A stretch of 43,622 nucleotides of DNA from a virus: positions 1 to 43,622 of IMG/VR virus record IMGVR_UViG_3300030331_001665, one strand, 5' to 3'. Below the pieces are notes generated by a model that ran no database searches, was not told where the DNA came from, and saw nothing but the letters and a program-made list of their open reading frames with translations. Position numbers and translations under genes: made by a program. Positions 1 to 14,066 of this stretch are shown piece after piece. How positions within the stretch are numbered: position 1 is the first letter of the stretch; each line of letters starts with the position of its first letter.

Positions 1-883
1 CAATGTCTTTGCTACTGTCTAACCATGTGCCTTTTATGTCATATAACTGTTTATATTTATTAACAGCATTATGTCCAGCAACATCATTATCAAATAAAGT
101 TACAACTTTTTTATAATTTTTCTTAAAATTTTCAATCATATAAGGTTTTATTACAGTATTCTCTGAGTCAGGTGCAACAACTTCAATGTTGTATCCAAAT
201 TGTTTTAGACACATTGCATCTTTCAAAGAAGAACATATAACAAGATAAGGTTGTTTAAATTCTAATTGATCTAATCCTTGAAGCCAAGGTTTAACTTTAA
301 TAAATTTAAACTTCTTATTTCTTGGTTGATAAATTTTATAAACTTCACCCACACTAGCCCAATATCCATATATATAAGGTTGTTGTATAGTAATTCTGTC
401 ATTTTCTTTAACCATATGATAATAATCTATAGCTGTTACATTGTATTTATTTAATATATCTTCACCAATATTAAATTGTAACCAAAATTTCTTATCATAA
501 TTATTCCATGCTCTTACTACTACACCATCAACTTTATACTTTGCTTCTGGTTTTAATGTAGACTGTGTATATACACCTTTATCTGTAATAAACTTATTAT
601 AGTCTTGACCTATTTTAAATACAGCTTTAGAATAATCTATATTGAATAGCTCTTTAACTAAATCAATTCTATTACCACCTTTACCTGTAGAAAAATCTTT
701 AAATTTATATTGACCCTTGTCTACAAATACCCACATGCTTGGAGTTCTTTCTGATGGATGAAATACAGATTTAATCTGCACATTCTGTCCATTCAGTCTT
801 TCTGGTAAATCTAGATAGAACTCAAACACCCATGTACTTGGAACTTTAGATCCATCCAATATGAGATTCTTTGTACTTATCAT
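1..883 (-). CDS. DNA primase, DnaG/TOPRIM type (partial, C-terminus outside window)
   Basis: Reading leftward from the ATG at 883, about 294 codons are open to the window edge. The N-terminal 80 residues contain FHPSERTPSMWVF and FKDFSTGKGGNRIDLV, the layout of the CHC2 zinc-ribbon region of DnaG primases, but the zinc cysteines are missing. Around residues 210-265 there is a TOPRIM-like domain: VICSSLKDAM stands where most families have a glutamate-containing loop, followed by TLFDNDVAGHNA, the metal-binding DxD-type motif. It should make RNA primers at the phage fork. It is the last gene seen in the leftward replication operon, 70 nt after the SSB-like gene with a terminator-like hairpin between them. 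Primase assignment is fairly sure; the C-terminal helicase-binding part is not visible. Confidence 0.82.
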   Translation of the reverse strand, partial: MISTKNLILDGSKVPSTWVFEFYLDLPERLNGQNVQIKSVFHPSERTPSMWVFVDKGQYKFKDFSTGKGGNRIDLVKELFNIDYSKAVFKIGQDYNKFITDKGVYTQSTLKPEAKYKVDGVVVRAWNNYDKKFWLQFNIGEDILNKYNVTAIDYYHMVKENDRITIQQPYIYGYWASVGEVYKIYQPRNKKFKFIKVKPWLQGLDQLEFKQPYLVICSSLKDAMCLKQFGYNIEVVAPDSENTVIKPYMIENFKKNYKKVVTLFDNDVAGHNAVNKYKQLYDIKGTWLDSSKDI

Positions 884-9932: not shown

Positions 9933-10172
9933 TCATACTAATAGAAATTTTCTACCAATCCTCTTTATATATCCTTTTTGCTTTAATTTGTTAAGATTTC
10001 TATGTATTGTACTTGGATTTACATCACATAAATCAGCTAATGTATTAATAGAAGGATAACAAGTTCTATTTTTATTTGCGTAAGTACATAATAAAGCATA
10101 CAAACCTTTAGCTTGCATAGATAGCTCTGGATCAGTTAATATATCTTTATTTACTATTCCAAAGCTTTCCAT
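9933..10172 (-). CDS. Winged-helix HTH protein (HTH_36-like)
   Basis: The 79-residue protein is almost entirely a winged helix: GIVNKDILTDPELSMQAKGL, then YALLCTYANKNRTCYPSINT, then TLADLCDVNPSTIHRNLNKL and KQKGYIKR for the wing. This is the arrangement of HTH_36-type domains found at the N-terminus of phage replication initiators and in small regulators. With nothing beyond the DNA-binding domain, it is likely a regulator of the early region or an origin-binding accessory. It overlaps the upstream gene by 19 nt. Palindromes in the adjacent non-coding region are candidate operators. Confidence 0.72.
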   Translation of the reverse strand: MESFGIVNKDILTDPELSMQAKGLYALLCTYANKNRTCYPSINTLADLCDVNPSTIHRNLNKLKQKGYIKRIGRKFLLV

Positions 10173-10585
10173 AATCCCATAATATTAGATCTTTTAACTC
10201 TTATTTCTTTAGATGGTGTTGTTCTACCATCTCTTGATGTATGAAAGTTAACTATTATTTTATATTCAGTTGCATAAGGATTACAACCACTTTGATAATC
10301 ACAATCATCTATAATTCTACCCTTTATATAACCATTTTCATCCATTTTTAAAGTATCTTTCATCATATCATCTTCATAACATTCTTTTAGATCATATTTA
10401 TTATCTTTAGGATCAAACCAAACTATATCATTTTTTTTAAGTAATATATGCTCCCTTTCATTGACTATTTCATCCATCACTGTGCCTTTTTGTTCATCAC
10501 TTAAATACGATATCATCATCTTTAGTATAAACTCATCATCCATTGAGTCTTTTATTATCTTATATGTTATTCTTTCTAAATTCAT
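10154..10585 (-). CDS. Hypothetical acidic protein, first gene left of the switch region
   Basis: The protein has 143 residues when started at the ATG at 10585 (MNLERITYKIIKDSMDDEF). An ATG 19 codons further upstream would put a 10-bp hairpin and a hydrophobic low-complexity stretch inside the coding region, so the shorter form is preferred. The sequence is acidic with VNEREHILLKKNDIVWFDP and a beta-rich C-terminus (TEYKIIVNFHTSRDG, KEIRVKRSNIMGLWK). No family recognised. It is translationally overlapped with the winged-helix gene downstream. Confidence 0.6.
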   Translation of the reverse strand: MNLERITYKIIKDSMDDEFILKMMISYLSDEQKGTVMDEIVNEREHILLKKNDIVWFDPKDNKYDLKECYEDDMMKDTLKMDENGYIKGRIIDDCDYQSGCNPYATEYKIIVNFHTSRDGRTTPSKEIRVKRSNIMGLWKALE

Positions 10586-10604
10586 ATCATTATTATTATG
10601 GACC

Positions 10605-10636
10605 AAGAGGATGACGTAGCTATAGATCATCCCCTT
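10605..10636 (-). promoter_or_regulatory. 5'-leader hairpin of the 10154-10585 gene
   Basis: AAGAGGATGA at 10605-10614 pairs with TCATCCCCTT at 10627-10636 (one mismatch, 12-nt loop). It lies 20 nt upstream of the ATG at 10585 on the leftward strand and is not followed by a T-run, so it is more likely a leader structure than a terminator. Confidence 0.4.
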
Positions 10637-10719
10637 AATCACTACTCACTTAATAGAATAGATATTACCTATTCAAATAATAAACATTATACCCCTATAA
10701 TGCTATGGTACTGTTTGTA

Positions 10720-10733
10720 TTGCATACATGCAA
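10720..10733. repeat. Palindrome TTGCAT-AC-ATGCAA, operator candidate
   Basis: This is a perfect 6-bp inverted repeat with a 2-nt spacer. It lies about 135 nt upstream of the 10585 start on the leftward strand. The symmetry fits a dimeric HTH repressor such as the small winged-helix protein encoded next door. Confidence 0.4.
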
Positions 10734-10975
10734 CAAAAAACAATTATACTTGCCTAACCCAAATAGGTTAGGACTTTGGTAGGTTGTTTGATTTTATACA
10801 GTTTACTCTGTTTTTATATAATTAGTCTATGACATTACATAGTAAAAAGGCAATCTTAACGTTTCTGAGCATACAGTAGTTATCTGCAGTCTGGCTGTAC
10901 TCTAAGTCACCTGGTAGTTTTCAGTGTTGCTACTTACCTAATTATTTTAAATGTTGCGGTTACTATGTCTCTTAT

Positions 10976-11105
10976 CCTATAGATAGAGAACATACATAGA
11001 CTATAGGCACAACAGATCTCAGTTCTATTTCCATGCAATATGTGTAAGCATTCAGATCCGTCAAATTTCATTCTTTTTAATCTGTCAAAGTCAAGGTGCC
11101 TATAG
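10976..11105. repeat. Three-part CCTATAG inverted repeat with competing pairings
   Basis: CTATAGGCAC at 11001-11010 can pair with CCTATAG at 10976-10982 (7 bp, 18-nt loop) or with GTGCCTATAG at 11096-11105 (10 bp, 85-nt loop). The two pairings exclude each other. A direct repeat GTCAAA occurs twice in the large loop. Confidence 0.45.
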
Positions 11106-11127
11106 CTATATTATATATTATGGTGTT

Positions 11128-11251
11128 AACCATGTTGGTTTGTGGTTGAAAGTGGTAATATGTGGGAAATAAGACCTCACACACACAACTTAATGCACAC
11201 ATTTTATTTTTATTAACCAAGTTTTCTGGTTTCTGTAACCAAATTGTGGTT
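11128..11251. repeat. Three AACCA...TGGTT inverted repeats
   Basis: AACCA and TGGTT arms occur at 11128-11140 (3-nt spacer), 11215-11231 (7-nt spacer) and 11237-11251 (5-nt spacer). Three copies in 124 bases suggest a binding-site cluster. Confidence 0.45.
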
Positions 11252-11261
11252 GATTACTTAA

Positions 11262-11304
11262 AAAAAAGCAGAACACACTCTTTATCCTTTCGGAGAGTGT
11301 GTTC
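11262..11304 (-). terminator. Strong intrinsic terminator of 11324-11635
   Basis: GAACACACTCT at 11271-11281 pairs perfectly with AGAGTGTGTTC at 11294-11304 (11 bp). Read leftward the stem is followed by TGCTTTTTTT. The 12-nt loop can itself form CCGAAAGG. It lies 20 nt after the stop of the leftward gene. Confidence 0.85.
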
Positions 11305-11323
11305 CTATAAGTTCAGTTTGTAT

Positions 11324-11635
11324 TTATCCTACAAACTCTGCCCAGTTAAGTCCAGTTGGTTCCTTGGTATCTCTGTCTAACACAGGAGAACCAGAATCAA
11401 CTACACCTTGCAATTCCTGATCTTTCTGGAAATCATACTCTCTTGGATCAACAGTATTTCCATCTTCATCAGTAATTATTAGCAAGCAGAACTGAGCTTG
11501 ATTACGGACAAATGCTTCTTTACCGTTAATCATTTTCTTAGTTCTTGATGCAGTTGTTTTCACAATACAGGAATTAAGTGGGTTTCCATTAGAATCTTCT
11601 GAATACTTATGGAAAAATAAATTAGATTTAATCAT
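11324..11635 (-). CDS. Small beta-rich hypothetical protein
   Basis: The 103-residue protein is predicted mostly beta strand: MIKSNLFFHKYSEDSNGNPL, then AQFCLLIITDEDGN and FQKDQELQGVVDSGSPV, ending TGLNWAEFVG. The FQKDQELQG segment recalls FEPGQELSG in the acidic-tailed protein at 8979-9548, which may mean a shared small OB-like fold; this is only a hand comparison. It forms a single-gene unit between repeats and a strong terminator, which suggests high or separately timed expression. Confidence 0.65.
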   Translation of the reverse strand: MIKSNLFFHKYSEDSNGNPLNSCIVKTTASRTKKMINGKEAFVRNQAQFCLLIITDEDGNTVDPREYDFQKDQELQGVVDSGSPVLDRDTKEPTGLNWAEFVG

Positions 11636-11665
11636 ATCTTTGTTTTTAAATTTAAATTAGTTAAT

Positions 11666-11695
11666 ATCTCACTCTAATAAGGGAGAAGAAAAATT
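11666..11695. repeat. Switch-region repeat, copy A
   Basis: It contains the 15-base core ATAAGGGAGAAGAAA (11678-11692), identical to copy B at 11951-11965. The left flank is diverged. It lies about 30 nt upstream of the 11635 start on the leftward strand. Confidence 0.6.
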
Positions 11696-11702
11696 GAATA
11701 AG

Positions 11703-11739
11703 TAAGGAGTTTGGAAATATTGCACTCCTTAAGCAATAT
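11703..11739. repeat. Interlocked hairpins
   Basis: TAAGGAGT (11703-11710) pairs with ACTCCTTA (11724-11731), 8 bp. ATATTGC (11717-11723), inside that loop, pairs with GCAATAT (11733-11739), 7 bp. The stems cross, so they form alternatives or a strained pseudoknot. Confidence 0.5.
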
Positions 11740-11938
11740 AATGTAATAGTACCAAGCTTGTTTTTCGGTTATTTTATTTGGCCTTCTTTAGGTTATAGCA
11801 GGTTCACCAGATTTCTGTTATGTTTTACTACTCCTAATGCTCAAAGTGCGTGCACACACATCTATTACATTTTATTGTAGCAAGAATAATCTTAAACACA
11901 TAGGTTCTTTTACTGATATGTCCTATATGCAATTACTC

Positions 11939-11968
11939 CTGCACTTTCTCATAAGGGAGAAGAAATAT
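11939..11968. repeat. Switch-region repeat, copy B
   Basis: The 30 bases from CTGCACTTTCT to AAGAAATAT match copy C at 12543-12572 at 25 of 30 positions, and share the 15-base core with copy A. Immediately after it, GCAATA (11979-11984) can pair with TATTGC on either side (11966-11971 or 11990-11995). Confidence 0.62.
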
Positions 11969-12004
11969 TGCATCTAAGGCAATAAGAAATATTGCAAGAG
12001 AGAA

Positions 12005-12304
12005 CTATATTAGCTCTCTCTCTTTTTCATACTTCTTTAGTTGCATTATTAGATCAGGATATTCCCAATGTATACCTCCAGGTACAGATTTAAAATGTCC
12101 AGCTTCATTTCCATCTTCATCTAATAATTTTATAATGTAAGCATTATCTTTGTGATAACCTTTAGTCTTAAGACCTATTCCTTCCCAAGTCATTAATATA
12201 GATTTCATATCTACTCCATGTTCAAAGAATGATTCAGATTTAAATAGATCTTTATACTTTTCATTATACTTATTTAAGTATTCATTATATTTTTTAGTTG
12301 TCAT
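12005..12304 (-). CDS. Small hypothetical protein
   Basis: The 99-residue protein has a charged helical N-terminus (MTTKKYNEYLNKYNEKYKDL), then a beta-rich middle (AYIIKLLDEDGNEAGHFKSV, PGGIHWEYPDL) and a short helix at the end. I do not recognise it. It is the rightmost leftward gene. A weak -7-like TATAATTG lies about 30 nt upstream on its strand, and its stop codon falls within an AGAGAG/CTCTCT hairpin that could help end the transcript. Confidence 0.62.
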   Translation of the reverse strand: MTTKKYNEYLNKYNEKYKDLFKSESFFEHGVDMKSILMTWEGIGLKTKGYHKDNAYIIKLLDEDGNEAGHFKSVPGGIHWEYPDLIMQLKKYEKERELI

Positions 12305-12345
12305 ATCAATTAAATATTAAGTTAACAATGCAATTATATTTCATA

Positions 12346-12389
12346 ACAGGTGTTACTTAGTATTATACTAAGCAAGGTCTCACACCTGT
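12346..12389. repeat. Nested inverted repeat
   Basis: Outer arms ACAGGTGT (12346-12353) and ACACCTGT (12382-12389) enclose an almost perfect 17-bp palindrome CTTAGTATTATACTAAG (12356-12372). It lies about 45 nt upstream of the 12304 start on the leftward strand. It is an operator or cruciform candidate. Confidence 0.5.
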
Positions 12390-12542
12390 AGATTAACACT
12401 CTTTTACGTTACCTCAAGACTGACATCAAAGTGACTTCTTGCAAGGTGATGTGATAGCTAACAACCTACCAGAGTGGATTGTGTTGCAGTTTACTATATA
12501 TATAACACAATTCTAAGCTATATATAACAGGGGGTACCTGCA

Positions 12543-12572
12543 CTGCACATTCTAGTAGGGGAGCAGAAATAT
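12543..12572. repeat. Switch-region repeat, copy C
   Basis: CTGCACATTCT followed by AGTAGGGGAGCAGAAATAT matches copy B at 25 of 30 positions. It sits about 50 nt upstream of the TATATTA promoter motif at 12621-12640. Confidence 0.6.
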
Positions 12573-12620
12573 AGAACGTCTCTAGAACTTAATGCATACA
12601 AAATTTCAATTTAGGGAGGA

Positions 12621-12640
12621 AATTTGTTATATTATATATG
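12621..12640 (+). promoter_or_regulatory. TATATTA-type promoter motif before the candidate RNA
   Basis: AATTTGTTATATTATATATG shares the T-rich plus TATATTA arrangement with motifs upstream of five late genes. It directly precedes the structured segment 12638-12749. Confidence 0.42.
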
Positions 12641-12749
12641 TAGGGGGACTTAGGTATACAGCCCCATCCTTTACAAAAAGGTATGTGCAGTAGCTTACCA
12701 TCCCTACATAAACACACCCAAGTATATTAATTATTGCTTATTGGGTTTT
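12638..12749 (+). ncRNA. Candidate structured small RNA
   Basis: ATGTAGGG (12638-12645) pairs with CCCTACAT (12702-12709), closing a 72-nt element that contains inner GGTA/TACC pairs. A 6-bp stem ACCCAA (12716-12721) / TTGGGT (12741-12746) followed by TTT could end the transcript. A promoter motif lies immediately upstream and there is no reading frame. The RNA could be a phage sRNA or the structured leader of the first late gene; no known RNA family recognised. Confidence 0.4.
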
Positions 12750-12792
12750 GATAAATGTCGTATGTATATATAAGGATCGTGTTTATTATGTT

Positions 12793-12829
12793 TAGGTTTG
12801 GGACAGGTGTTTAGAAATAGATACGTCCC
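12793..12829 (+). promoter_or_regulatory. First rightward promoter with a GAAA-capped 5' hairpin
   Basis: TAGGTTTG (12793-12800) matches TAnnTTTG exactly. From its last base, GGGAC (12800-12804) pairs with GTCCC (12825-12829), then after an AG bulge GTGTTTA pairs with TAGATAC, closed by the tetraloop GAAA (12814-12817). The hairpin would sit at the very 5' end of the mRNA, 30 nt before the ATG at 12860, and could protect it from decay. A second reading, a terminator of an upstream RNA, is weaker because only TTTATG follows. Confidence 0.55.
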
Positions 12830-12859
12830 TTTATGTTAAATTTTTAAAATTATTTTGTT

Positions 12860-13393: not shown

Positions 13394-13702
13394 ATGAAAG
13401 ATCAAAATCCAGATGACTTCTTACCAGAAATGAGTGAGTCAGAAAAATATGAGGTTGAACAAATGATGATAGATAAGGCGTTTGATAATTCGTACTTGGT
13501 ATTAACTAATAGAGCTACTATAGAAGAATTATTAGAAAGAAAATCTAAGTATGGAATGAAAGGTATAATGATGTTTGATCCAGGTGATGAGCCGGATGAG
13601 GATTTATTTGATGATGTAATCTATTATTATGAGGATCTTGAAGAGTATGAACGTTGTGCGGAATTATTGAAGATTAAGAAAAAGAAATTTAAAAATGTAT
13701 AG
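13394..13702 (+). CDS. Acidic hypothetical protein
   Basis: The 102-residue protein is strongly acidic until a Lys-rich end: ESEKYEVEQMMIDKAFDNSY, then NRATIEELLERKSKYGMKGI, then a DEDLFDDVIYYYEDLEEYE stretch and KIKKKKFKNV. The pattern of a hydrophobic helix, an RATIEELL helix and an acidic YYEDxEEYE helix recurs in marine phages as far as I remember, without known function. It overlaps the thermonuclease-like gene by 8 nt. The opposite charge to the basic proteins encoded just downstream makes a chaperone role for them possible, though this is speculative. Confidence 0.65.
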   Translation: MKDQNPDDFLPEMSESEKYEVEQMMIDKAFDNSYLVLTNRATIEELLERKSKYGMKGIMMFDPGDEPDEDLFDDVIYYYEDLEEYERCAELLKIKKKKFKNV

Positions 13703-14066
13703 TTATAATGCAAAATGTATAAAAGTGGTAGATGGTGATACCATAGATGCAGAAATAGATCTTGGCTTTGATGTTAAGATTAAAAAAAGAATAAGGCTAG
13801 CTGGTATTAATGCACCAGAGTCTAGAACTAGAAATAAAGTTGAAAAGAAGTTAGGTTTGGCAGCAAAGGAAAGATTAATTGAAATGTTAGATGGTGCTGC
13901 TAATTACTTTGAATTAGAATCACAAGAACTTGGTAAGTATGGTAGAGTTCTTGGTAGATTGCATATAGATAAAATAGCAGGCAGGGATACAATCACTAAA
14001 GTATGTGTGAATGATTGCCTCGTAAAAGAAGGACATGCCGTAGAATATAACGGTGGTAAACGTTAA
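13695..14066 (+). CDS. Staphylococcal nuclease-like (SNase fold) protein
   Basis: The 123-residue protein matches the SNase core: VVDGDTIDA at about 11-19 (metal and strand region), RIRLAGINAPESR at about 32-44 with the catalytic Arg and Glu equivalents (R34, E42), and KYGRVLGRL at about 81-89 with the second catalytic Arg (R84). All three catalytic positions are kept, so it is probably an active Ca-dependent nuclease cutting DNA or RNA. There is no signal peptide, so it acts in the host cytoplasm, for example on host DNA. It is the lead gene of the cluster of tiny basic proteins. Confidence 0.85.
   Translation: MYSYNAKCIKVVDGDTIDAEIDLGFDVKIKKRIRLAGINAPESRTRNKVEKKLGLAAKERLIEMLDGAANYFELESQELGKYGRVLGRLHIDKIAGRDTITKVCVNDCLVKEGHAVEYNGGKR

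Follow-up and report, generated by a model that had tools for sequence, protein, structure and literature searches.

A single-copy conserved element with a sequence-variable RNA hairpin at the early/late gene junction of uncultured crAss-like phages

Introduction

What does some 1.6 kb of non-coding DNA do at the point where the early and late genes of a phage diverge? A preliminary description of such a locus suggested strong selection on a replication origin, a regulatory RNA region or both, with a decaying spacer as the alternative. For crAss-like phages, neither the early-to-late switch nor the replication start site is settled (PMC10136315). Analysis of the locus yielded a precise single-copy conserved element that can be mutated or mapped. 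It also yielded a new RNA family with an unusual pattern, a fixed shape whose sequence is replaced wholesale. This raises a testable question, namely what reads the hairpin regardless of its sequence, and for what reason the sequence is swapped.

The window and its non-coding blocks

We analyzed an IMG/VR virus contig of 43,622 bases, called the window below. It encodes a terminase, a portal and head proteins with matches to crAss-like families (PHROG matches to TerL, portal and the major head protein; TerL 27% to cr50_1). Close relatives are contigs of 114-122 kb with the same layout, and one of them, G001, has ORFs of 4,979, 2,979 and 1,938 aa, putatively of the RNA polymerase type, so that the Crassvirales-like hallmarks of TerL, portal and giant putative RNA polymerase-type ORFs are all present. 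Judging by these hallmark proteins and by the shared layout, the window is a part of a crAss-like phage of ~115-120 kb rather than a complete genome. The relatives and the low GC content suggest a marine type.

Gene direction flips at 12,304/12,860, and three non-coding blocks that total ~1.6 kb are found here, much as had been described. The blocks are the three largest gaps of the window and hold nearly half of its 3.3 kb of non-coding bases. The layout of the junction is as follows.

9,933-10,172, minus strand: early gene with a winged-helix replication-initiation/DnaD-like domain (PHROG 428/270/186, E 2e-14 to 7e-13)
10,154-10,642, minus strand: gene of the conserved early core, the first one past the element described below (relatives have 0-4 small, unrelated genes in between)
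10,643-11,323: non-coding block 1
11,260-11,304, minus strand: hairpin followed by U8, terminator of the gene at 11,324-11,635 and immediately upstream of the element (-19.0 kcal/mol)
11,324-11,635 and 12,005-12,304, minus strand: genes separating the blocks
11,636-12,004: non-coding block 2
12,305-12,859: non-coding block 3

The terminator hairpin at 11,260-11,304 is not conserved in close relatives.

A conserved element in block 1

The main signal in the region is an element on the minus strand at ~10,955-11,165, conserved across genomes, which the preliminary description did not isolate. Segments 10,939-11,013 and 11,101-11,212 recur in many relatives, and the DNA between and around them is unrelated. 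Copies were collected in two scans. The exact 17-mer CCTATAGAGAGAGAACA matched 36 IMG/VR stretches, which as far as checked belong to the same group, save L088 and L089 from an unrelated GC-rich phage; L088 (record G004) was dropped as a chance occurrence. The second scan, for ATAGCTAT plus phased GTGG repeats, added diverged members. After removal of one false pair and of L121, in which an open reading frame occupies the slot of the hairpin arm, the set comprised 51 distinct copies, one per genome, from ~50 related uncultured phages. The 17-mer occurs once in 13 of 15 records and never more often (G004, with its chance match, is among the 13), and the core has exactly one copy in each of five long genomes, always in non-coding DNA.

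All 51 elements lie at the same junction in a constant order: in most cases a minus-strand gene of the 11,324-11,635 type, then the element, 0-4 small unrelated minus-strand genes, and the early core. The gene at 12,005-12,304 (minus strand) is mobile, being located directly behind the element in L010 and further down the accessory slot in L021. In G007, a contig of 245,646 bases (IMGVR_UViG_3300030098_004828), the nuclease region 13,695-14,066 is present in two copies (L022 and L034), and two related genomes may have been joined there during assembly.

A loose pattern did not detect the element in those of L033-L045 that lack a strict match or in the more distant L047-L085, so it is confined to one group. 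Rfam 15 gave no match in the window at the gathering threshold and only chance-level sub-threshold ones (E<=5), and a DNA search of isolate phages gave no match. A scan of cellular genomes for the core motif returned a single match, on a Lachnospiraceae contig, with the other parts not nearby; we consider it to be due to chance. No description of the element was found in the literature searched, which largely excluded subscription papers.

With 51 distinct conserved copies in IMG/VR relatives, the decaying spacer is ruled out. The features stressed earlier are real. They include a 27-nt repeat at 11,673, 11,947 and 12,551 (100/89/78%), three AACCA...TGGTT elements at 11,128, 11,215 and 11,237, and a nested palindrome of ACAGGTGT (12,347-12,354) and ACACCTGT (12,382-12,389) around CTTAGTATTATACTAAG. 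The repeats and AACCA elements are mostly lineage-specific and are not the conserved core. Most of the repeats are not found in relatives, but the third copy of the 27-nt repeat sits inside the conserved late leader. The palindrome (12,347-12,389) is absent from the relatives compared.

Parts of the element

On the minus strand, the element opens with three ACCAC repeats at a spacing of exactly 10 bp, followed by a weak dyad, AT-rich DNA and a long hairpin, whose basal strand begins with AAUAUAGCUAU. Next come the nearly invariant GUUCUCUCUCUAUAGGAU, a small hairpin and AGUAACCGC. Many relatives have an AUG 34-75 nt further on. In the window, the parts are:

11,142-11,165, minus strand: three GTGG(T) repeats (ACCAC on this strand), 10 bp apart, with phased offsets
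11,120-11,133, no strand assigned: dyad ATGGT-GTTA-ACCAT in the spacer, not universal
11,102-11,119, minus strand: AT-rich segment with conserved ATAGCTAT (from the alignment and the basal helix)
10,990-11,114, minus strand: the arm, a long hairpin of hypervariable sequence close to the putative leader's 5' end (from fold z, G.U use and strand swapping)
10,974-10,991, minus strand: nearly invariant GTTCTCTCTCTATAGGAT, with one change in the window (exact 17-mer in 36 stretches)
10,963-10,994, minus strand: small hairpin around the invariant core (50-copy alignment; weak consensus fold)
10,956-10,965, minus strand: conserved tail AGTAACCGC, then an AT-rich stretch and ATG in many relatives

The GTGG repeats start at offsets 40/50/60 from ATAGCTAT in 33-39 elements; nearly all of the remaining ones have 38/48/58 or 41/51/61. 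The bases between the boxes are free, and the repeats are present in one copy per genome, or nearly so. The 10-bp steps look like binding sites on one helix face, and the repeats, which precede the RNA, are probably bound by an activator or initiator. The stems of the dyad vary among relatives (ATGG/CCAT, ACGG/CCGT, ACTGT/ACAGT), and its excess over chance is only moderate, with a mean stem of 4.12 against 3.21 expected and at least 5 bp in 15 of 43. The AT-rich segment is probably both the -10/start region and the 5' strand of the basal helix. At the other end of the element, the 3' core GTTCTCTCTCTATAGGAT is nearly fixed in sequence; the surrounding hairpin varies and has weak support, with two alternative 3' strands among relatives.

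The long hairpin is an RNA

Between the conserved segments lies an arm of 60-180 nt. In the window, its fold has a z of -2.86 on the minus strand versus -1.27 on the plus strand. Compared with dinucleotide shuffles, minus-strand folds have a mean z of -3.06, and 25 of the 35 independent arm families are below -2. The energy is lower on the minus strand in 33 of 35 families (p 1e-6), and the z values of the strands differ in the same comparison (Wilcoxon, p 0.001). For the mismatch count, folding was restricted to Watson-Crick pairs, a procedure that is almost neutral between the two strands. The single mismatches, read on the minus strand, were 20 G.U versus 3 A.C, while shuffled arms had 20 versus 18, and this identifies the RNA as a minus-strand one. 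A plus-strand reading of the element was dropped after the strand-energy and G.U tests.

The two strands of the arm also match each other. In the variable part, own pairing has a mean energy of -9.46 kcal/mol versus -6.42 kcal/mol with the strands of other elements, and none of 20,000 strand-swap permutations was as good. This test was chosen for the basal helix since the linker length varies and global alignment therefore misregisters. At one basal position A-U is found 23 times and C-G 19 times, and several others have 4-6 pair types, counts that lean toward structure as the basal partners come from the predicted fold. The long hairpin is an RNA. Both the strong selection and the regulatory RNA region proposed earlier are borne out by the conservation, the strand-specific use of G.U and the pairing covariation in the 51 elements.

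Turnover of the arm

The 51 arms form 35 unrelated sequence families. The window and L046 have ~92% identity on both sides of the arm and unrelated arms, while diverged backbones have an arm in common (L001/L006/L157, L116/L209 and L191/L227). In these comparisons, the arm behaves as an exchangeable cassette. Recombination through the fixed flanks combined with relaxed constraint would suffice to account for the turnover; selection for arm difference is possible.

In L121 (IMGVR_UViG_3300020454_000133), the arm is replaced on the minus strand by an open reading frame of 49 codons, whose start lies exactly at AUAGCUAUG and whose end is a TAG just ahead of the core. This is possibly a gene inserted in the arm slot.

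Possible roles of the element

The most likely reading, to which we give about an even chance, is that the element combines a promoter with a structured 5' leader RNA for the leftward early (or middle) operon of a group of marine crAss-like phages. The RNA strand is the early-gene strand, a terminator-like signal within 300 nt downstream is missing in 47 of 48 cases, and in ~17 of 44 an ORF with 40 codons or more begins 34-75 nt past the core. Blocks 2 and 3, which likewise fold on the strand of their downstream genes, also favour this reading. Initiation would take place in the AT-rich stretch, positioned by the three ACCAC boxes on one helix face. The minus-strand transcript would start at AAUAUAGC or just upstream and so would open with the long hairpin, retained in shape and free in sequence. 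The fixed GUUCUCUCUCUAUAGGAU, single-stranded or weakly paired, would follow, and then the small hairpin and the AUG of the first accessory gene. Such a leader would act in cis on the message of its own operon. Its double-stranded 5' end would be recognised through its shape, while a sequence-specific factor would recognise the invariant segment. The leader could act through end protection, RNase III processing or, as HK022 put, through binding of the elongating polymerase, and the data favour no single option.

Several observations speak against the leader. The promoters claimed in the preliminary description are unsupported as stated, since a scan found 14 sigma-70-like sites versus 14.1 expected, no better than chance. 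An independent small RNA is possible, since the first ORF lies at a distance of 100-400 nt, or is missing, in the window and about half of the relatives. The single copy and the rigid 10-bp repeats also suit an origin, and a role of shape only has no obvious need for fast exchange of arms.

As a kind, phage early leader RNAs are known: T7, the lambda N leader and T4 gene 32 provide examples of RNase III sites or 5'-terminal stabilising hairpins on phage early messages, and the likeness lies in a long imperfect 5' RNA hairpin recognised by shape. We know of neither wholesale hairpin exchange nor a fixed 17-nt companion motif in those systems. It is the wholesale exchange of a shape-conserved hairpin that we rate as unusual, and as the shape is kept while the sequence is swapped, a leader of this type would probably be a new kind of early-message leader.

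The replication origin proposed earlier is somewhat unlikely. The ACCAC/GTGG boxes would then be iterons for a phage initiator (a partner protein or the winged-helix protein of 9,933-10,172 itself), unwinding would take place in the AT-rich stretch, and the hairpin RNA would be a primer or an activating transcript. Part of this proposal stood: there is at most one copy per record and exactly one core in the five long genomes, the iteron-like boxes are in exact 10-bp phase beside an AT-rich stretch, and the element adjoins replication genes. It also coincides with a local minimum of cumulative GC skew in three genomes. However, the skew, which had been suggested as a check, follows the coding strand in sign, and 4-fold degenerate sites show neither a switch nor a replichore pattern in five genomes; therefore, we rejected GC skew as origin evidence. 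Moreover, the minus-strand block is just ~25 kb of 115, and three boxes are few for iterons. Iteron origins resemble the element in being single-copy and in having short, helically phased direct repeats next to AT-rich DNA, but here a conserved RNA hairpin belongs to the element. According to a review, two replichores flank a skew inversion in crAss-like phages, and the mode of their replication is unknown (PMC10136315). The layout of early/replication versus late modules with a skew turning point is likewise that of Crassvirales, for which the available parts of PMC10136315 and PMC8375218 describe no RNA or DNA element at this junction.

The turnover of the arm would be explained by an RNA acting in trans, with the hairpin as an exchangeable specificity determinant, either a superinfection or incompatibility tag or an antisense or decoy against the host or a rival phage; fast replacement would follow. 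The 35 unrelated arms in otherwise conserved elements, the arms common to diverged backbones and the unrelated arms of the window and L046 agree with it. Still, we consider it unlikely: no target is known, 47 of 48 elements have no terminator-like signal downstream, and relaxed constraint with recombination via the conserved flanks gives the same pattern. Quite unlikely, too, is a phage 'identity' RNA, that is, a single-copy leader whose shape is essential and whose hairpin is swapped as a cassette and selected to differ from those of co-infecting relatives; it would decide whether superinfection is compatible or whether the phage escapes a defence that recognises RNA. An early leader with hairpins on the early strand recalls a processive antiterminator like HK022 put, in which a leader of two hairpins binds RNA polymerase and enables it to read through early terminators. 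The put RNAs are ~70 nt long, with two stem-loops, and located downstream of early promoters (PMC9378689). What putL and putR share with the element are cis-encoded hairpins near the start of a phage early transcript. But put suppresses termination by the host RNA polymerase through the beta' zinc-binding domain, while early transcription of the crAss-like phage phi14:2 uses a virion polymerase (PMC10136315). Instead of ~70-nt fixed stem-loops, there are two early-strand hairpins in a single copy, one of them a hypervariable arm of 60-180 nt that has no counterpart in put. We consider a put-like role improbable. Finally, a DNA element with no RNA role (a cruciform or an attC-like recombination site) would account for an exchangeable cassette with conserved flanks and for the palindromic ATAGCTAT, but the strand-specific 20:3 excess of G.U over A.C is unexpected for a DNA hairpin, and its probability is close to negligible.

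Other known systems were rejected. A retron ncRNA was dropped, as PF00078 was absent from 8 records and the control search was positive in 3 genomes. The core resembles CTATAGG of T7-like promoters, of which several copies per genome would be expected, not one. A search for the single-subunit polymerase domain PF00940 gave no match, which is weak evidence of absence, as the control matched nowhere either. Y RNAs of the Ro/TROVE system are also hairpin RNAs with a conserved base and a variable loop, but the TROVE protein was not found in the eight records searched. In crAss001, a TROVE gene is an early one (PMC8375218).

Blocks 2 and 3

The two remaining blocks hold the following structures.

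11,636-12,004, minus strand: block 2, putative structured leader of the gene at 11,324-11,635 (minus-strand z of -4.19, plus-strand z of +0.49)
12,524-12,859, plus strand: within block 3, putative leader of the late operon, structured and conserved (79-91% identity in L001, L046, L032 and L112)

The blocks fold on the strand of the downstream gene, and each therefore resembles a structured leader for that gene. Block 1 has far more support than blocks 2 and 3. The core of block 2 (11,738-11,867, minus strand) has 77% identity to positions 380-513 (minus strand) of L033 from G012. A wider scan for relatives returned L033's own contig and nothing else, so two copies were found. The conserved core of this RNA is GCCAAATAAAATAACCGA-AAACAAGCTTGG with a compensated closing stem; the core copies alone have z of -1.05 and -0.70, not significantly beyond shuffles. 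In block 3, the plus-strand fold is better in all five copies, and the window copy has similar z on both strands (-2.05 and -2.49).

The core of block 2 is flanked by two copies of the 27-nt direct repeat (11,673-11,699 and 11,947-11,973), as if duplicated or inserted, and a third, weaker copy is found at 12,551-12,577 in the late leader. In addition, AACTTAATGCACACA / AACTTAATGCATACA are located at 11,187-11,201, upstream of the early element, and at 12,586-12,600 in the late leader; perhaps this is a regulator site common to both divergent units.
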